This document shows, in pieces, positions 1-13,929 of a stretch of DNA of 15,761 bases; position 1 is the first letter of the stretch; every line of letters begins with the position of its first letter. Source of the stretch: a methanogenic archaeon (GTDB lineage: Archaea; Thermoplasmatota; Thermoplasmata; Methanomassiliicoccales; Methanomethylophilaceae). The position numbers and the translations under genes are program-made. Under the pieces are notes generated by a model, which ran no database searches, was not told where the DNA came from, and saw nothing but the letters and a program-made list of their open reading frames with translations. The DNA lies in NCBI GenBank assembly GCA_902787415.1, contig CADAGG010000006.1:1-15761 (forward strand), written 5' to 3'.

Positions 1-953
1 CGCTCGCATCCGTGACCATCGGCAATTCGGTCACTGCCATCGGAAATTTTGCGTTCTCCGGTTGTACATCGCTCGTATCAGTGACCATCGGCAATTCGGT
101 CACTGCCATCGGGAATTATGCGTTCGACCATTGTACATCGCTCGCATCCGTGACCATCCCCGACTCGGTCACCTCCATCGGGGATAGTGCGTTCAATAGT
201 TGCACATCGCTCTCATCCGTGACCATCCCCGACTCGGTTACCTCCATTGGGAATCATGCGTTCTTCAATTGTGTACTGCTCGAATCCGTGACCATCGGCA
301 ATTCGGTCACTGCCATCGGGGATAGTGAATTTTTGGGTTGTTCCTCGCTTGCATCCGTGACCATCCCCGACTCGGTTACCTCCATTGGGAATCATGCGTT
401 CGAAGGTTGTACACATCTTGCATCCGTGACCATCCCCGACTCGGTCACATCCATCGGAACCGATGCTTTCCAAGGATGCAATTCACTCACAACGCTTTAC
501 ATCCCGTGCAACAACCCTCTGGGAATCACTGCAAATGACAGTGTGAACAACGGGGGGATTTCTCAGAATGTGGACGAAGACAATCTTTTCCCGATTCATG
601 ACTATTCCGCCACATACACTTGGGCGGATGACGGTTCGGCCTGCACGGTGAGGGTGTTCTGCGAAGACTGCGACTACCTGGCGGGGATAGAGCATCCCGC
701 CGTAAACTCCGTAGTGAAGATCCCCGCGACGGAGACCGAGATGGGGACCACCGAGTACTCCGTGTCCGGAACGGTCGAGGGTTATCAGTACTCTTCCGTC
801 AAGGACATCCAGGACATCCCCCCGACCGGCCATCACGATGATCCCTCCACTCACCGCTACGATAGGTTCCCCGCACTTGCTCTCACCCTGTCCGTGCTGT
901 CCTGTCTCGGAATGGTTGGTGCGGTGGTCCTTCTGGGCAGACGTACGGTCTGA
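1..953 (+). CDS. BspA-like leucine-rich-repeat surface protein, 3' part
   Basis: The reading frame is open to the left edge, so the gene starts outside the window; the GTG at position 12 is an internal Val codon, not a start. Seven 23-residue repeats of LRR_5/BspA type follow each other (pattern TIxxSVTxIGxxAFxxCxSLxSV), then a Cys-containing domain with an ATYTWADDGSACTVR stretch often seen after such repeats. The end is a hydrophobic helix (LALTLSVLSCLGMVGAVVLL) followed by GRRTV, which fits a C-terminal membrane anchor with positive inside residues. BspA-like proteins are extracellular and known in bacteria for binding host or matrix proteins; many copies occur in gut archaea. The exact ligand cannot be read from the sequence. 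An exported, membrane-anchored adhesin is the likely role; the signal peptide would be upstream of the window. The stop is TGA. Confidence 0.85.
   Translation, partial: LASVTIGNSVTAIGNFAFSGCTSLVSVTIGNSVTAIGNYAFDHCTSLASVTIPDSVTSIGDSAFNSCTSLSSVTIPDSVTSIGNHAFFNCVLLESVTIGNSVTAIGDSEFLGCSSLASVTIPDSVTSIGNHAFEGCTHLASVTIPDSVTSIGTDAFQGCNSLTTLYIPCNNPLGITANDSVNNGGISQNVDEDNLFPIHDYSATYTWADDGSACTVRVFCEDCDYLAGIEHPAVNSVVKIPATETEMGTTEYSVSGTVEGYQYSSVKDIQDIPPTGHHDDPSTHRYDRFPALALTLSVLSCLGMVGAVVLLGRRTV
12..494 (+). repeat. Seven tandem 69-bp units encoding LRR_5 repeats
   Basis: Units begin at 12, 81, 150, 219, 288, 357 and 426, each opening with gtgaccatc. Two unit types alternate: type A encodes TIGNSVTAIG (units 1, 2, 5) and type B encodes TIPDSVTSIG (units 3, 4, 6, 7). 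The first half of each unit is almost identical at DNA level, including synonymous positions, while the second half (AFxxC part) varies. This suggests recent duplication or gene conversion. The array probably continues to the left of the window. Confidence 0.9.
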
Positions 954-2405: not shown

Positions 2406-2801
2406 ATGAGTCTCGGGAGCGAGGGTCCGGAAACCGAATTCGTCGACGGCATGGAGCAGCTGGACGAGGCGGTCAGGGCCATGACGGGGATGCTCAACAA
2501 CCGCAATCGGGGTGTCGTCATAATCGGTGTCGACGGTCGCGGGGAGCCTCTCGGGATAAGCTTCGGAGAGGACGATGTCAGGAGGGTACGCGAGGCCGTC
2601 GAGAGAAGCCTCAACCATCTTCCCAAGTTCGATGTGAGCATCGGGAGCGACGGCGGGAAGGAGTATCTGAGGATCGCGGCCGAGGGGTACGAGATACCTT
2701 ACTCCTGCGACGGCTGGTTCTACTCTCGCAGGCGGTGTCCCGGAAGTCCCGACGGGAAGGAATGGGTGACACTGCTCACCTGCGGGATGAGGCACCACTG
2801 A
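2406..2801 (+). CDS. Stand-alone AlbA_2 (Schlafen-type) domain protein
   Basis: A 131-residue protein. The early EFVDGMEQLDEAVRAMTGML, then NNRNRGVVIIGVDGRGEPLG (31-50), matches the AlbA_2/Schlafen core, where an acidic ExEF-like start is followed by an IxIGVxDxG strand and a GI turn; the later YSRRR stretch (106-110) matches the end of the domain. In larger proteins this domain sits before helicase, HTH or ATPase parts and is known for nucleic-acid binding and, in Schlafens, RNA cleavage. Here it is nearly the whole protein. The usual Lys of the ExxFK motif is not obvious, so catalytic activity is uncertain. No good ribosome binding site is seen before the ATG at 2406; a later start would remove part of the domain. 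The next gene begins 47 bases downstream but has its own TATA box. Confidence 0.65.
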   Translation: MSLGSEGPETEFVDGMEQLDEAVRAMTGMLNNRNRGVVIIGVDGRGEPLGISFGEDDVRRVREAVERSLNHLPKFDVSIGSDGGKEYLRIAAEGYEIPYSCDGWFYSRRRCPGSPDGKEWVTLLTCGMRHH

Positions 2802-2827
2802 CCTTCGTGTATTTTATAAACGAAGGT
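2801..2827. promoter_or_regulatory. 8-bp inverted repeat enclosing the nitroreductase TATA box
   Basis: ACCTTCGT (2801-2808) and ACGAAGGT (2820-2827) are perfect complements separated by 11 AT-rich bases that contain the TATA element ATTTTATAA. Transcription would begin near 2840, just before the ATG at 2849. A dimeric repressor bound to both arms would cover the TATA box. The first base is also the last base of the preceding stop codon, so a hairpin terminator for the upstream gene is an alternative reading. Confidence 0.55.
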
Positions 2828-2848
2828 CTCGATTTAAGTGGCGATAAC

Positions 2849-3631
2849 ATGGAGTCCACCCTTCTCATCTCGGATTCGTGCATAGGCTGCGGGAAATGCG
2901 TCAAGGTCTGCATCCGCGGACATCTTAGGATCGGGGACAGGAAGGCCACCGAGGTGGACTCCGCGTATTCCTGCTTCAGGTGCGGCCATTGCGCCGCCAT
3001 CTGCCCCAAGGGCGCCATAACCCTGAGGGACGGAGGGGAGCAGGATCCTGTTGAAGGATGCCCTGTCAGCAGTTCCGACATGACCGCATTGCTCCGCAGC
3101 AGGCGCAGCATCCGCTGGTTCGACAGGAAATGCACCAGGGAGGAGATAGGTGCCCTTCTGGAGGCCGTACGTTACGCCCCCACGGCGGAGAACTCGCAGA
3201 AGGTCGAGTATGCGGTCATCGATTCCAGATTCGACGATTTCATGAGGATGCTCGCCTCCATCCTCCGCTCCCATACGGGGGAGCATCCGAGGCTGAAGCA
3301 GTTCGTCGATTATGTGGACGGGGGCATGAAGGAGAAGAACAATCCCTTCACCTGGGAAGGAAGGCAGCTCATCGTCGCGTTCGCCCGCTTCCCCATCGAC
3401 GCCATCATCCCCATCGAACAGCTGGACCTCGCGGCCTGCACCATGGGTCTCGGAGGATTCCATTCGAGGTGGATGCTGCAGGCGGCGGAGAATGACCTCG
3501 AGACGTTGATGGGATTCTTCCCCGACGTTGATCCGGAGCTCAAGGCTTACGCGGTGTTCGTGATCGGCCATCCGAGGATGCGCTTCATCCGTACCGTCCC
3601 CCGCGACGAGAGGAAGATACAATACATGTGA
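2849..3631 (+). CDS. Ferredoxin-nitroreductase fusion protein
   Basis: A 260-residue protein. Residues 1-60 form a bacterial-type 2[4Fe-4S] ferredoxin domain with C11, C14, C17, C21 and C42, C45, C48, C52 (last Cys of each set followed within two residues by G or P). Residues 80-255 match the nitroreductase family: LLRSRRSIRWFDRK near the FMN-binding start, YAPTAENSQKVEY, and LAACTMGLGGFHSRWM in the middle. Such fusions carry electrons from the clusters to FMN and reduce an organic substrate or serve in anaerobic flavin chemistry; the substrate is unknown. The ATG at 2849 was chosen because the upstream extension overlaps the previous gene and the TATA box lies at 2812-2820. It ends convergently with the next gene, with a hairpin between them. 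Confidence 0.88.
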   Translation: MESTLLISDSCIGCGKCVKVCIRGHLRIGDRKATEVDSAYSCFRCGHCAAICPKGAITLRDGGEQDPVEGCPVSSSDMTALLRSRRSIRWFDRKCTREEIGALLEAVRYAPTAENSQKVEYAVIDSRFDDFMRMLASILRSHTGEHPRLKQFVDYVDGGMKEKNNPFTWEGRQLIVAFARFPIDAIIPIEQLDLAACTMGLGGFHSRWMLQAAENDLETLMGFFPDVDPELKAYAVFVIGHPRMRFIRTVPRDERKIQYM

Positions 3632-3679: not shown

Positions 3680-4663
3680 TCAGAGTTTCTTTAGGCGGCG
3701 CTGGGAGGCGTGGTCGAGCTCCTCCAGGGCGTCGAGGTACTTCTTCAGGGCATCCTCCTGCGCGTGGATCATGTGCAGGACGATGAGGGCGGTGTTGAGC
3801 TCGTCGCCGGCCTCGAAGATGTCGGGGTTGTCGGAGCTCTCCTTGAGCTGCCTGATGAGGGAGTTCCTGACGGCCCTGTTGCCGTCGTCACCGTAGGCCA
3901 CGATGGAGTCCAGGGCGGACCTTCCGTAGGTGGTCTCGTTGATGAATGCGAGCACTGCGTCGCAGATCTCCGGGTTGTAGTCGAAGTTGATGTCCTCGGC
4001 CATGTTCATGAAGGCCACGTTGAGCTTCTTGGTGTAGTACTCGAAGGTGGCGATCTTCATCCTCTTGGAGTCGGTGTTGATCGGCGAGGGGCCGAACAGG
4101 TCCTTGAGGTCCCTGGGGGTGGCGTTGGTGACGACCTGGAAGGGCTTGAAGTCCTCTCCCGCGGGGGTGATGAGGCTGTTCTTCCTGGCGAGGTACATGT
4201 CGATGGCGGGCTTGACGATCCTGTTGTGCCTGATGATGGCCCTCTCCTCGTCCCTCCTTGCCTTCTGTCCCCTCTCGAAGTAGTTCAGGATGTCCATGGC
4301 GAGGATACCTACGAGGAAACCGATGCAGGTGTCGGAGATGTTCAGCAGGTGCCAGTACGTGTCGTTGTTGGTGTAGCTGGTGTCGCCGGGGCCGAACTTG
4401 ACGGCCTTCCATATGAGCAGGACTGCTTCCAGTATGAGGAACACCAGCAGCAGGATGGAGACGGACATGGCCATGGTCTTCATCATGGCCCTGGTGTCGT
4501 ACCTGGCCGCGCTCTTCTTCTTGTTCTTGGTGCGGGCGGACTTGCGCTGCTTCTTCGCCTGCACGTCGTTCTTCCTGTCCTCTTTGACCCTCTTGCGTTC
4601 CTCGGCGGCCTCGTTCTTCTTCTTGGCGGCCTCCCTCTGGGAACGGTCCAGACTGCTTGCCAT
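3680..4663 (-). CDS. Lys-rich two-helix membrane protein, partner of HprK-like protein
   Basis: A 327-residue protein of no family I recognise. Residues 1-55 are extremely basic and charged (REAAKKKNEAAEERKRVKED and later KNKKKS), likely a cytoplasmic coiled coil or nucleic-acid/lipid-contact segment. Two membrane helices follow at about 63-88 and 106-128, joined by a short polar loop, then a long soluble helical region of about 200 residues. No enzymatic motif is visible. The ATG at 4663 lies two bases after the TGA of the kinase-like gene; the frame upstream of it overlaps that gene and was rejected. Coupled translation and the absence of another promoter suggest the two products form one system at the membrane. 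Confidence 0.8.
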   Translation of the reverse strand: MASSLDRSQREAAKKKNEAAEERKRVKEDRKNDVQAKKQRKSARTKNKKKSAARYDTRAMMKTMAMSVSILLLVFLILEAVLLIWKAVKFGPGDTSYTNNDTYWHLLNISDTCIGFLVGILAMDILNYFERGQKARRDEERAIIRHNRIVKPAIDMYLARKNSLITPAGEDFKPFQVVTNATPRDLKDLFGPSPINTDSKRMKIATFEYYTKKLNVAFMNMAEDINFDYNPEICDAVLAFINETTYGRSALDSIVAYGDDGNRAVRNSLIRQLKESSDNPDIFEAGDELNTALIVLHMIHAQEDALKKYLDALEELDHASQRRLKKL

Positions 4664-4665
4664 GC

Positions 4666-5607
4666 TCACTCGCCCCCTACGATCTTGGCGATCTCCGCCT
4701 GGGTCTCCTGCGGGCTGCGGATGGTGTTGACCATGAAGGTCCGGCACTGTCCGAACAGCCTGCGGAGGAATCCCCTCCTGAGGGAGTTCCTGAACTCGTC
4801 GCGGACGATCTGGTGCGGGTTGCAGAGATCGTGCTGGGACAGGTATTCCAGGGCCTCGTCGGGGGTGAGCTCGCGGCATACGTTAGCGTCGTCGTGATCC
4901 CTCTTCAGGAGGATGACGTACCTGAGGGTGGCGTTGGGGACCACGGAGGTCCTGCCCGCTACCCATCTCACATTGGCGATGCCCCTGCCCTTGTTGTCGA
5001 ACTGGACGTTCTTGACGAGCGGCTTGTACTGCTCCCACACGTCGCCGATGTCGGCGTCGATGTAGCAGTTCTTCTCGGATCCGCGGATGAGCGGCCTGCC
5101 GCTGCCGAAGGTCACGAAGAACCAGTCGTCGGAGATGAGCTGGGAGTTCTCGTGCCTCAGGAGTCCCCAGGACTGGGTGGTCTTGCCGGTCTTGGAGGGG
5201 GCGATGAGCGCCACTCCGACGCCGTCGCAGTTGATGGCGGCTCCGTGCACGGAATAGATGTCGTGGGCCGCTTCCAGGATGTATCCGGAGATGCCCAGGG
5301 CGATGCTCTTCACCCATCCGTAGTAGTCGAAGTTGTAGAGGATGGCGGTGAACGTGGCGGGATCGAAGTCCACGCGCAGGGGCTGCTCCGGGTCCTTCAC
5401 GCAGATGACCCTAGCATGGGAGCGGGTCATGTCGGAAGGTGCATAGAAGTTGTCGTTCCACATGTCCATGTGGGTGCGGTCGGCGGTCTGCAGTTCCACA
5501 CAGATGCCGCATATGTCCGCCTTCGTGAAGAAGAGCAGGTCCTTGGCGTATCTCCCGCGAAGTTCCAGACATCTCTCGGTCGAAATGACTGTCGTTTCGT
5601 ATGCCAT
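4666..5607 (-). CDS. HPr-kinase-like P-loop protein
   Basis: A 313-residue protein from the ATG at 5607. The centre carries the features of the HprK/PEPCK-type nucleotide-binding fold: SVHGAAI (119-125), a Walker A-like loop APSKTGKTT (136-144), and SDDWFFV (159-165) with the acidic Walker B pair D160-D161. The first Gly of the P-loop is Ala, unlike classical GxxGxGK[ST]. The N-terminal 110 residues are not recognised, and the C-terminal part (230-313) is helical and basic. In bacteria HprK phosphorylates HPr on Ser; archaeal relatives without a PTS are of unknown substrate. A TTG eight codons upstream is possible, but a T-rich element 25-33 bases before the ATG favours a leaderless start there. 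Its two-base coupling to the membrane protein suggests that the partner is its substrate or tether. Confidence 0.72.
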   Translation of the reverse strand: MAYETTVISTERCLELRGRYAKDLLFFTKADICGICVELQTADRTHMDMWNDNFYAPSDMTRSHARVICVKDPEQPLRVDFDPATFTAILYNFDYYGWVKSIALGISGYILEAAHDIYSVHGAAINCDGVGVALIAPSKTGKTTQSWGLLRHENSQLISDDWFFVTFGSGRPLIRGSEKNCYIDADIGDVWEQYKPLVKNVQFDNKGRGIANVRWVAGRTSVVPNATLRYVILLKRDHDDANVCRELTPDEALEYLSQHDLCNPHQIVRDEFRNSLRRGFLRRLFGQCRTFMVNTIRSPQETQAEIAKIVGGE

Positions 5608-5631: not shown

Positions 5632-5655
5632 CTAAAAAAGGTAATCTTTATTTGG
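5632..5655. promoter_or_regulatory. Divergent promoter region of kinase and flavodoxin genes
   Basis: Rightward, CTTTATTTGG at 5646-5655 fits a TATA box with transcription starting near 5676, twelve bases before the proposed TTG start of the flavodoxin. Leftward, CTTTTTTAG at 5632-5640 lies about 27 bases before the kinase ATG. Confidence 0.4.
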
Positions 5656-5687
5656 AATATGCCCATCTCCAATCAGAAGGGATTGCA

Positions 5688-6092
5688 TTGGGAGGCACAG
5701 TCATCATTTATTCGTCTTTCGCCGGGAAGACGCGCAAGATAGCCAAGTACATGGCCGAGAAGGCGGGTTGGGACATATTCGATCTCAAGCTCCAGACCAA
5801 CATCGATTTGACTTCGTACGACAGGATCATCATGGGCACCGGGGTCCACAACGGGAACCCGTATGCCCGCGTGACCAGGTTCGTGGAAGACCATGCGGAC
5901 GTGTTCCTCGACAAGGACGTGGCCCTGTTCGTGAGCTGCCTGTACGTCGGCGAGCGTGCCGCGAAGCAGTGCAGCGAGATTGCCAAGGAATTCCATATCA
6001 ACAACGCGGTGTTCTTCAGCACCCGCGGCGAGAAGAACGAGGTCGGGCTTCCCAAGGACGTCGACGCATTCATAGAGAGGATGAAATCTTGA
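5688..6092 (+). CDS. Small flavodoxin-domain protein (HemG-like flavodoxin family)
   Basis: A 134-residue protein starting at TTG 5688 (MGGTVIIYSSFAGKTRKIAK). The first strand and loop YSSFAGKT (8-15) is the FMN phosphate-binding loop of flavodoxins; YDRIIMGTGVHNGNP (44-58) and FVSCLYVGERAAKQC later correspond to the second and third FMN contacts, as in the flavodoxin group that includes protoporphyrinogen oxidase HemG. It probably carries electrons as a soluble flavoprotein; the partner is unknown. The TTG start is preceded by AGAAGG and by a TATA box at the right distance. A TTG at 5652 would add twelve non-conserved residues and lies on the TATA box, so it is less likely. Its TGA overlaps the TTG of the next gene. 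Confidence 0.8.
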   Translation: MGGTVIIYSSFAGKTRKIAKYMAEKAGWDIFDLKLQTNIDLTSYDRIIMGTGVHNGNPYARVTRFVEDHADVFLDKDVALFVSCLYVGERAAKQCSEIAKEFHINNAVFFSTRGEKNEVGLPKDVDAFIERMKS

Positions 6093-9484: not shown

Positions 9485-11401
9485 TCACTCCTTGCTGGCG
9501 GTGAGCTTTCCGAGCTTCACGTTGTGTCCGTAGACACCCATGACCTGGAGGGCTGCGAAGATGACCGCGATGATGGAGCCGGCGAGGCTGACCTTGGCGC
9601 CGAGTCCGAGGACCACGAATCCTCCGAAGATGTTCCAGGTGAGGAAGAAGCAGGAGAGTGCCAGTGCGAGGATGGCGAGCACGAGGCAGACCAGGGACAT
9701 TGCCTTGGATCCCTCGGGCTTGAGGAAGTTCAGTGCCTCGACGACGAGGAAGGCGAATCCTGCGATCATCACGATGAGGGGGATGAACTGGAAGACGCCG
9801 TCGGCCCAGCTGGCGCTGAAGAGGGAGAATCCCCTGACGAAGGGCATTCCGTCGACCCATCCGCAGACACCCGCGCAGAAGACGAGGATGGCTCCGACGA
9901 TGGCGAAGGCGCTCATGAGCTTGGGCTGGGGGTTGGACTCCTTCTCGAAGTTGACACCGGGGGTGACGTCGGGGTGCATCTGGCAGTTCCACCACTGGAT
10001 GAAGATCCAGGCGGGGACGTACAGGAGGGTCGCTCCGAGACCGATGATGCAGTATCCGAATCCCATGTACTCGTACACGTAGTAGAGCAGTCCGGGGATC
10101 ATGAAGAAGAACTCGAAGATGGCCATGAAGATGGCTCCGGGGTAGGCCCATTTGGGTGCCCTGTAGACCCTCTCGACATCCTTGAAGCGGGGGTCGTGCC
10201 TGCTCTTGATGAAGGCGAGCATGCACATTCCGAGGGCGATGGCGAATCCGAGTGCGGAGACGGCCAGGATCTGGGAGGCGGTGATGCCTGCGAGGATGAT
10301 GACGAATCCGATGAATGCCTCGAAGAACATGGCGTAGATGGGGACACCGTAGCTGTTGGTCTTGGAGAACATGTAGGGGAAGTTACCCTCCTTGGCCATG
10401 ATCTGGATGGTCCTGGCGGTTCCTAGGAAGGCGGTCTGGATGATCATGACCATTCCGGCGATGAGGAGGACCACGGCGATGGCGCCGGCGGCCTTTCCGA
10501 AGTCGGCCTCGGCGACGGGGATCAGGGTGGCTGCTCCCGCGATCTCGATCTGGCCGATTCCGAGTGCACCGTACATGCAGAATGCGATGATGAAGTACAT
10601 GAAGAGACAGAGCAGACCGCAGGCGATGAGTGCCTTGGGAACGTCCCTGGAGGGCTCCTTGTACTCGGCACCGTAGGTTGCTGCGGACTCCCATCCGACA
10701 GCGCTCCACTGTGCGACGGTGAAGCATCCGAGGATCATGAGGATGTTGTTTCCGTTCCATACCCATCCGGTGGGGACCAGCTCGTCGGAGATGGTGGCCA
10801 TGTGGAAGGTACCGTTGAAGAGAGGGACCACGCAGATGACGAGGATGGGGATGATTGTGATTGCGGCGAGGATCAGCTGGATCTTCGCGCCGCCCTCGAG
10901 TCCCTTCCTGCCGGATACGATGATGAACAGGTAGATGAGGAAACCGAGTGCGAGGTAGTAGAGGGTGGCGGTGAAACCGTCGAGGTTCAGACCGAAGTAA
11001 TCGTTGATGTAGACACCGGTCATGATGGTGAAGATCGGGATGACGGGGACCCAGGTGGCGAAATACGCCCATGCTCCCAGCGAACCGATCATACGGCCCT
11101 TGTTAACTTTCTTGCCGGCGTATTTCTCATCATCCTTGTAGACGTACTGAATCGAGCCTCCGATTCCAGCGACACCGAAGGTGGCGCACATCTCTCCGAG
11201 GGGGATGTTGAGAAGGAAGCCGGACAGGACGGACAATACCCAAATGATGATGCTCATGGACCAGAGGGTGACCGACAGATCGCACAGCGAAGGTACGATG
11301 AGGATCGGGATTCCCATGGCGATGATGAGACCCTGTTTCCAGTCGATGCTCCTGACCAACTCGTTGGTCACGGCAGGCTGGTTGCTTACTTCTTCTGACA
11401 T
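9485..11401 (-). CDS. APC-superfamily amino acid/amine permease
   Basis: A 638-residue integral membrane protein with about 14 hydrophobic helices. The N-terminus (SIDWKQGLIIAMGIPILIVP) resembles the first broken helix of APC transporters, and the stretch WSAVGWESAATYGAEYKEPS followed by RDVPKALIACG is the typical APC block after helix 6 (E followed by K.P.R..P.A). It is longer than the usual 450-500 residues; the additional C-terminal helices (from about residue 490) are unusual. Cytoplasmic-membrane uptake or exchange of amino acids or amines is the likely job; the substrate cannot be read. Ribosome binding site GAGGT lies eight bases before the ATG. The gene stands alone, behind a long AT-rich control region and before a strong terminator, so it is probably regulated as a single unit. 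Confidence 0.88.
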   Translation of the reverse strand: MSEEVSNQPAVTNELVRSIDWKQGLIIAMGIPILIVPSLCDLSVTLWSMSIIIWVLSVLSGFLLNIPLGEMCATFGVAGIGGSIQYVYKDDEKYAGKKVNKGRMIGSLGAWAYFATWVPVIPIFTIMTGVYINDYFGLNLDGFTATLYYLALGFLIYLFIIVSGRKGLEGGAKIQLILAAITIIPILVICVVPLFNGTFHMATISDELVPTGWVWNGNNILMILGCFTVAQWSAVGWESAATYGAEYKEPSRDVPKALIACGLLCLFMYFIIAFCMYGALGIGQIEIAGAATLIPVAEADFGKAAGAIAVVLLIAGMVMIIQTAFLGTARTIQIMAKEGNFPYMFSKTNSYGVPIYAMFFEAFIGFVIILAGITASQILAVSALGFAIALGMCMLAFIKSRHDPRFKDVERVYRAPKWAYPGAIFMAIFEFFFMIPGLLYYVYEYMGFGYCIIGLGATLLYVPAWIFIQWWNCQMHPDVTPGVNFEKESNPQPKLMSAFAIVGAILVFCAGVCGWVDGMPFVRGFSLFSASWADGVFQFIPLIVMIAGFAFLVVEALNFLKPEGSKAMSLVCLVLAILALALSCFFLTWNIFGGFVVLGLGAKVSLAGSIIAVIFAALQVMGVYGHNVKLGKLTASKE

Positions 11402-12891: not shown

Positions 12892-13929
12892 GTGCACAAG
12901 TATGATTATGGGAAGATCTCAAGCAATCTCCCATCGGACATTCTGCGGTTGATAGGATTCATCAGAGAAGCGAAGACGAAGGATCTGTACCGTAAGTCTC
13001 AATACATGCGGGAGTACGAGGATATCCTGTCGATAGCGAAAGTGGCGTCGGTCAAATTCTCTAACGCCATCGAGAACATCGTTTCGACAGATGAACGTAT
13101 ACGCGAACTCGTTGTGAGAGGCGGAAGACCCCTCAACCACTCTGAAGAGGAGATAGCGGGTTACGGTGTAGCTTTGGACATTATCCATTCAGAACCGCTG
13201 AATGTGGAGAAGGCCACTCTGCATAGGCTCCACTCAGTCATCCGTGCCGGCCTTCCGGACGAAAGAGGGAGATTCAAGACTCGTGACAACGTGATAGCAG
13301 AGATCGATGCGGAAGGCAACACCAGAGTGGTATTGCGCACAGTTCGGTTCCAGGACGTCGAGACGAACATCGATGCGATGATCGATGCCTATCTCCTCGC
13401 CGACACAGACGGAGTCGAACCCCTGCTGATGATCCCCTGTATCATAGTCGACTATCTATGCATACACCCGTACATGGATGGTAACGGGCGTACTTCACGT
13501 CTCCTGACATATCTTCTGCTGTATCAACACGGATTCGATGTCTGCAGATACGTTTCCCTCGATGAACATATCGCATACACGAAGAGCGGCTATTACCGGG
13601 CACTGAACGAATCATCATCCGACTGGGAGAACAGCAAAAACGACTACGTACCGTTCATACGGTATTTTCTCCAGATGCTGTATGAGTGCTACACCGATCT
13701 GGATACGCGTTTCGCCTTGAAGGGTACCACAAAGATGAAGAAAGGCGAGAGGATCGAGTTGATTCTGAAGAACAGTCTGGTCCCTATTTCCAAACGTCAG
13801 ATTCAGATGGCTCTTCCGGATGTCAGCATACATACTGTGGATGCGGTAATCAAGAAGATGATCGACGAAGGCAGAGCAGAGAAGGTAGGCGGATTCAGAA
13901 ACGCAAGGTACCGTTACCGTGAACGGTGA
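12892..13929 (+). CDS. Fic-domain AMP-transferase with C-terminal winged helix
   Basis: A 345-residue protein starting at GTG 12892. The Fic active-site motif HPYMDGNGRTSR (192-203) is intact, with catalytic H192. An upstream SNAIEN (57-62) matches the inhibitory motif [S/T]xxxE[G/N], with E61 as the autoinhibitory Glu, so this is a class II (N-terminally inhibited) Fic protein. A Fic_N-like helical start and a C-terminal winged-helix domain (about 272-345, with ISKRQIQMALPDVSIHTVDA) complete the common three-part architecture. Fic proteins transfer AMP from ATP to Ser/Thr/Tyr of target proteins; the target is unknown. The winged helix suggests DNA binding, possibly to the four palindromes in front of the gene. 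Coding GC is lower than in the neighbours and codons such as ATA and AGA are more used, consistent with acquisition. The mRNA is probably leaderless. Confidence 0.88.
   Translation: MHKYDYGKISSNLPSDILRLIGFIREAKTKDLYRKSQYMREYEDILSIAKVASVKFSNAIENIVSTDERIRELVVRGGRPLNHSEEEIAGYGVALDIIHSEPLNVEKATLHRLHSVIRAGLPDERGRFKTRDNVIAEIDAEGNTRVVLRTVRFQDVETNIDAMIDAYLLADTDGVEPLLMIPCIIVDYLCIHPYMDGNGRTSRLLTYLLLYQHGFDVCRYVSLDEHIAYTKSGYYRALNESSSDWENSKNDYVPFIRYFLQMLYECYTDLDTRFALKGTTKMKKGERIELILKNSLVPISKRQIQMALPDVSIHTVDAVIKKMIDEGRAEKVGGFRNARYRYRER

Follow-up and report, generated by a model that had tools for sequence, protein, structure and literature searches.

A compact protein with a predicted phosphoenolpyruvate carboxykinase fold and an altered metal site, encoded next to a two-helix membrane protein in some Methanomassiliicoccales

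Two adjacent genes in a methanogen contig

We analysed 15,761 nucleotides of DNA (positions 1 to 15,761 of contig CADAGG010000006.1, assembly GCA_902787415.1; referred to here as the window) from a member of the Methanomethylophilaceae, order Methanomassiliicoccales. The genome is 82.6% complete and contains mcrA. The interval 3680..5607 of the window consists of exactly two genes, both on the minus strand. The first (4666..5607), delimited by its open reading frame and its homologues, encodes a 313-residue protein with the fold of phosphoenolpyruvate carboxykinase (PEPCK), which we call mini-PEPCK. The second (3680..4663), supported in addition by an AF2 model, encodes a 327-residue membrane partner with a basic N-terminal helix, two transmembrane (TM) segments and a C-terminal helical bundle. 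According to the reading frames, the stop codon of the kinase gene and the ATG of the partner gene are separated by two bases (4664..4665). Sequence searches returned 1361 homologues of the kinase at E ≤ 0.001, the best 120 of which were listed, and 40 homologues of the partner. Because both proteins align with these homologues along their full length, the two frames are not chance products. Among named records, close relatives of the two genes come from Methanomethylophilus and other Methanomassiliicoccales.

The first-pass annotation of this DNA had described an HPr kinase-type domain with an unrecognised N-terminal third, encoded two bases ahead of a basic membrane protein. The frames and translations confirmed the spacing and the motifs SVHGAAI, APSKTGKTT and SDDWFF, with Ala in place of the first Gly of the P-loop. 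The annotation was also right to see a P-loop kinase, one that groups with PEPCK and HprK. The division into a kinase domain and an unrecognised remainder did not hold up, as described below.

The predicted structure has a PEPCK fold in both lobes

The fold check by structural prediction, which the annotation had proposed, revealed the two-lobe PEPCK fold. VIA-align placed residues 1..313 of the model on residues 52..455 of the Thermus PEPCK chain (1j3b); in the E. coli PckA entries, the aligned range is 65..466 or 66..466. Thus, mini-PEPCK is over its whole length a compact relative of ATP-dependent PEPCK, including a recognisable N-lobe. HprK was not among the 50 fold-alignment matches listed, although such non-listing excludes nothing. 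With the ATP-dependent enzymes (PF01293; E. coli PckA, Thermus PEPCK 1j3b), the protein has in common the fold, the Lys and Thr of the P-loop, the two Asp residues and the counterparts of His232 and Arg333. It differs from them in its length (313 residues versus 540 in PckA), its start at the place of Arg65, the Ser in place of Lys213 and the Ala at the first P-loop Gly. A Pfam profile search of the 313-residue protein reported no PF01293 match at E ≤ 5.

The likeness to HPr kinase/phosphorylase (TIGR00679, PF07475) is local. TIGR00679 matched residues 108-166, around the His, the P-loop and the two Asp, with E 1.1e-5 and a score of 24.8 bits, which is below the equivalog cut-off of 240 bits. 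In the Pfam scan only Hpr_kinase_C was matched (residues 119-165); the N-terminal domain of HprK gave no match, and the first 95 residues fall on the N-lobe of PEPCK. At Arg208, an RG-G-I-NV stretch aligns weakly with the RGLGI(I/D)-V segment of HPr kinase. Besides the Ala that opens its P-loop and the PEPCK-type N-lobe, mini-PEPCK differs from HPr kinase in its occurrence in an order without detected HPr. As the annotation had expected, HPr (PF00381) was found in none of 77 genomes of the order, the window genome included, while 7 of 14 control genomes were positive. HprK and PEPCK belong to one kinase group (PMC1079889). The 313-residue protein scored 13.4 with HprK_rel_B, far below the cut-off of 200. 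Non-HPr kinases related to HprK and PEPCK include the HprK-related kinases A and B (TIGR04352, TIGR04355), whose models matched 7 and 10 of 75 kinase rows, respectively, at a marginal level.

Nucleotide-binding residues are conserved and metal site 1 is altered

Active-site residues were mapped in an alignment of 211 family rows (79 of the 313-residue type, 4 of an outgroup of that type and 128 of a 400-residue type), to which three archaeal PEPCKs and, as the reference for numbering, E. coli PckA were added. A kinase tree of 93 rows covered 91 of the 122 order genomes with the kinase and two genomes from outside the order. Two relatives, L109 and L110, stood outside the 211-row alignment; L109 fits the active-site pattern, whereas L110 does not and was excluded from the counts.

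All coordinates in the following refer to the minus strand. The PEPCK-type N-lobe (residues 1-95; 5323..5607) starts no earlier than the position of Arg65 in PEPCK. The segment YYGWVKS (residues 95-101; 5305..5325) keeps Tyr207, Gly209 and Lys212 of the E. coli enzyme, and Ser101 takes the place of Lys213 of metal site 1. SVHG (5242..5253; SVHGAAI comprises residues 119-125) contains His121, the equivalent of the metal ligand His232, and is followed by the P-loop APSKTGKTT (residues 136-144; 5176..5202). DDW (5122..5130; in SDDWFF, residues 159-164) provides Asp160 and Asp161, which correspond to Asp268 and Asp269, and Arg208 (4984..4986) corresponds to Arg333. The His, the Ala and the Lys of the P-loop, both Asp and the Arg were found in 211/211 family rows and in 93/93 tree rows. 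All 211 rows keep Tyr207, Gly209, Lys212, His232, Gly253, Lys254, Thr256, Asp268, Asp269 and Arg333, and in all of them Lys213 is replaced by Ser and Gly248 by Ala; Thr255 is Thr in 210 rows and Ser in one. In the 93-row tree, none of the 13 mapped positions varies.

For GTP-PEPCK, metal site 1 is predicted to consist of Asp, Lys and His, and site 2 of a Thr with the Asp; one metal is coordinated by oxaloacetate, and the other accompanies the nucleotide (PMC4370629). Mini-PEPCK has retained the residues of site 2 and lost the Lys of site 1. Residue 1 of the model already pairs with PckA residue 65 or 66, so the Arg65 loop cannot be complete. This statement rests on the fold alignment, since the sequence alignment is gapped there in the archaeal PEPCKs.

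The loss of the site 1 Lys, the Gly-to-Ala exchange in the P-loop and the missing Arg65 region would also suit a non-catalytic ATP sensor or pseudo-enzyme scaffold. A remote relative, L110 (G153 contig 49; L110:12-1277), is plainly degenerate: it has lost most active-site residues and is without counterparts of His121, the two Asp and Arg208. Pseudo-enzymes usually lose the residues for ATP, Mg and phosphoryl transfer, however, and these are present in all 211 family rows (with the single Ser at Thr255) and all 93 tree rows. We consider this explanation very improbable.

Longer relatives share the altered site

A PEPCK-like archaeal family of about 400 residues, tagged PF27840, has the same Ala P-loop and the same Lys213-to-Ser exchange, and its other active-site residues are as in mini-PEPCK (128 rows). 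It differs in its greater length, in conserved Cys residues and in a conserved N-terminal Arg motif (at least 95% of 120 rows), whose Arg we take, without proof, as the counterpart of Arg65. Among eight of these relatives (L101-L108), C242, C254 and C272 are invariant (numbering of the L103 protein), which may form a metal site. PF01293 matched three of the eight at E ≤ 0.1; the match displayed scored 16.8, compared with a gathering score of 26.5. Because most of the longer relatives carry the public PF27840 tag, the wider family is already catalogued; the tag also occurs on 2 of the 120 listed 313-residue proteins. One 400-residue relative is recorded as coming from Nitrososphaerales. At the loci inspected, no conserved neighbour genes of the 400-residue type were evident.

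The kinase gene is nearly order-wide

The kinase profile matched 122 of 147 order genomes, representing 27 of 30 genera, and 66 of the 74 order genomes with at least 90% completeness and at most 5% contamination. A single match was obtained in 119 of the 122; the other three are G131, with two long copies, and G076 and G104, with extra fragments. In an even draw of 389 genomes from the phylum, 66 contained a family member (E ≤ 0.01). The 313-residue type was present in 57 (52 within the order, five outside) and the longer type alone in nine; two genomes have both, G430 and G153, the second copy of the latter being the degenerate L110.

Gene neighbourhoods differ between families. Fourteen loci were inspected from the 39 kinase-bearing genomes in other families of the order, with neighbour names assigned by eye from the sequence. 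In 13 of these loci the kinase gene lies behind a gene for homoserine dehydrogenase, in 12 behind one for an ACT-domain protein and in 11, with gaps of -4 to 264 bases, behind one for a citramalate/isopropylmalate synthase-like protein; one locus has none of the three. In the family of the window, the kinase gene is found near a divergent flavodoxin gene and a TYW1-like gene, both by family match, and a gene for the large RFC subunit, identified by eye. The flavodoxin-family gene of the window itself (5652-6092) diverges from the kinase gene, and many relatives in the same family have a related gene upstream of the kinase.

Functions considered from co-occurrence

The homoserine dehydrogenase neighbourhood suggested a homoserine kinase. 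This candidate was rejected, as ThrB exceeded its cut-off in 67 and ThrC in 73 of 77 order genomes; the two genes adjoin each other in the pairs compared (e.g., G015, G019 and G076). A general role as a coenzyme B (mercaptoheptanoyl-threonine) kinase was dismissed because mcrA occurs in 0/14 tested family-bearing genomes outside the order, compared with 4/4 order genomes. A cobamide L-threonine kinase was rejected in the same way, with CbiB/CobD in 0/12 such genomes and in 16/18 order genomes. BluE, the known alternative kinase for cobamides, has been described as homologous to PduX (PMC6249242). Canonical PEPCK_ATP occurs in just 3 of 77 order genomes (L149, L150 and L151 in G004, G008 and G001); a replacement for the missing PEPCK is disfavoured by the Lys213-to-Ser exchange and the missing Arg65 region.

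PEPCK has a pyruvate kinase-like side activity, and a protein that keeps the PEPCK pocket residues without Lys213 might perform this chemistry minus the CO2 step (phosphoenolpyruvate (PEP) and ADP giving pyruvate and ATP, or the opposite direction). Pyruvate kinase exceeded its cut-off in 157 of the 389 phylum genomes, taken as the same sample as above since number and handles agree: in 0/57 with the 313-residue type, one of which (G379) had a sub-threshold match, and in 157 of the 332 others. Fisher's test gave p = 8e-15, a value that assumes independent genomes, which they are not. No order genome was among the 178 pyruvate kinase matches in the sample, while 14/14 control genomes were positive, and the enzyme was absent from all nine single-contig order genomes tested. 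Most of the association, however, comes from a single order and five genomes outside it, and could therefore arise from ancestry alone. Ancestry accounts for some of the pattern at the least, because 175 genomes without the 313-residue type, 14 of family f23 among them, also lack a pyruvate kinase above the cut-off. Moreover, pyruvate kinase coexists with the 400-residue relatives in 6 of their 11 genomes. A PEP-pocket phosphotransferase in place of pyruvate kinase is therefore a long shot. We attach an equally small probability to the broader picture, in which a nearly order-wide enzyme would take over from pyruvate kinase, or carry out a comparable phosphorylation of an enol or keto acid, in archaea without pyruvate kinase, one clade having moored it to the membrane via the two-TM protein.

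The membrane partner is restricted to a few genera

The partner has the strongly basic N-terminus and the two membrane helices that had been described for it: residues 1-55 contain 21 Lys and Arg versus 8 Asp and Glu, and two hydrophobic segments follow. Homologues with a start near the same position back its start codon, and the AF2 model has a pLDDT of 79.8 and a pTM of 0.68. On the minus strand, the basic helix (residues 1-50; 4514..4663) is poorly conserved in sequence and mostly conserved in charge, according to the alignment and the model. It is followed by Ser51 (4511..4513), by TM1 (about residues 61-88; 4400..4483; within helix 52-89 of the model) and by TM2 (about residues 103-128; 4280..4357), both recognised by hydropathy. 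The model helix 101-165 runs past TM2 and includes a stretch with invariant columns (residues 137-162; 4178..4255); column entropy is lowest in residues 105-165.

The partner profile matched 39 of 147 order genomes, in 4 of 30 genera. Kinase and partner are neighbours in 37/37 genomes where both were found; in the remaining two partner genomes (G043, G058), the kinase was not found and the partner match lies less than 300 bases from a contig end. The expected conservation of the pair thus holds wherever both occur, whereas the partner is missing from most of the 122 genomes with the kinase. At loci without partner, no significant partner-like frame was detected downstream of the kinase (best E 0.081), and the kinase tree contains several nested lineages that kept the kinase without the partner. 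Within one clade, kinases with and without partner (37 versus 21 rows) differ most at positions that include residues 166, 173, 175, 305, 312, 313 and 51. Residues 166-175 (5083-5112) may contact the partner, a lead from a comparison that is confounded by descent.

The annotation had proposed that the kinase phosphorylates Ser/Thr residues of the basic tail. Among the Ser/Thr residues of this region, only Ser51, beside TM1, shows strong conservation (Ser in 33 of 34 rows). The other positions carry Ser/Thr in only 3 to 23 of the 34 rows, which makes the tail as a whole an unpromising substrate. A protein Ser/Thr kinase acting on Ser51 would agree with the strict adjacency of the pair and with the place of HprK in the kinase group of PEPCK (PMC1079889). 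Against it stand the Asn at position 51 of one partner and the nested lineages without partner. Because the kinase occurs in 27 genera and the partner in four, the partner cannot be the general substrate. We regard a kinase specific for the partner as unlikely.

Other genes of the window

The contig starts with a gene for a BspA-type leucine-rich-repeat protein (12-953; LRR_5, E 4.9e-54) with a C-terminal hydrophobic segment and the look of a surface protein. It is followed by genes for a DUF2284 metal-binding protein (969-1775; matched only from residue 127 of the frame onwards, so that the true start is probably internal) and a ferredoxin-nitroreductase fusion (2735-3631; Fer4_7 and Nitroreductase). 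Further genes encode a 638-residue amino-acid permease (9488-11401; AA_permease_2, E 4.1e-35) and a Fic/DOC family protein within a stretch of lower G+C content (12892-13929).

Discussion

We propose, with a probability of roughly 0.6, that the 313-residue protein is a compact, altered homologue of ATP-dependent PEPCK that now acts as a plain phosphotransferase and to which the membrane partner was added later. The retained residues for ATP, metal site 2 and phosphoryl transfer would make it an ATP-dependent phosphotransferase. As the Lys of metal site 1 and Arg65 are gone, the enzyme would presumably no longer make or use oxaloacetate. As acceptor we consider a small metabolite with a carboxylate group most likely, for three reasons: the pocket residues Tyr207, Gly209, Lys212 and Arg333 were kept, the gene occurs nearly throughout the order and mostly as a single copy, and in sister families it sits behind amino-acid biosynthesis genes. 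The two-TM protein would be a later gain in one clade of the family. Its probable task is to tether the enzyme to the inner membrane face, or to regulate it there, with the help of the basic helix and the helical bundle. We infer that it is not the ancestral substrate.

Several observations weigh against this proposal. In HMMER sequence comparison, HPr kinase equals or beats PEPCK: TIGR00679 matched 70 of 75 rows (best E 1.3e-7) and the PEPCK model 51 of 75 (best E 2e-6), and searches of the PDB with the single sequence and with a profile returned HPr kinases at E 0.4-1.3 and no PEPCK. Around Arg65 the sequence-based residue map is unreliable, as gaps occur there in the three archaeal PEPCKs as well, and the map of the other sites depends on sequence alignment. 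The loss of PEPCK function is itself something we infer from these residues. A protein acceptor is possible because HprK is a protein kinase, and the acceptor-side residues could have been kept for ATP handling only. The amino-acid gene neighbourhood is not seen in the family of the window, and the conservation counts omit L110 with its lost active site.

Among titles and abstract beginnings, in a search that covered few subscription journals, we recognised no description of the 313-residue protein. A gene carried by 122 of 147 genomes of a methanogen order encodes a PEPCK fold with an altered metal site. The Lys213-to-Ser exchange, the missing Arg65 region and the Ala P-loop suggest a natural path from a carboxykinase to a plain kinase. 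Some members are named "PEP carboxykinase (ATP)" in public records, a label that appears doubtful because Lys213 and the Arg65 region are missing, and metabolic models that rely on it could err at the PEP node.
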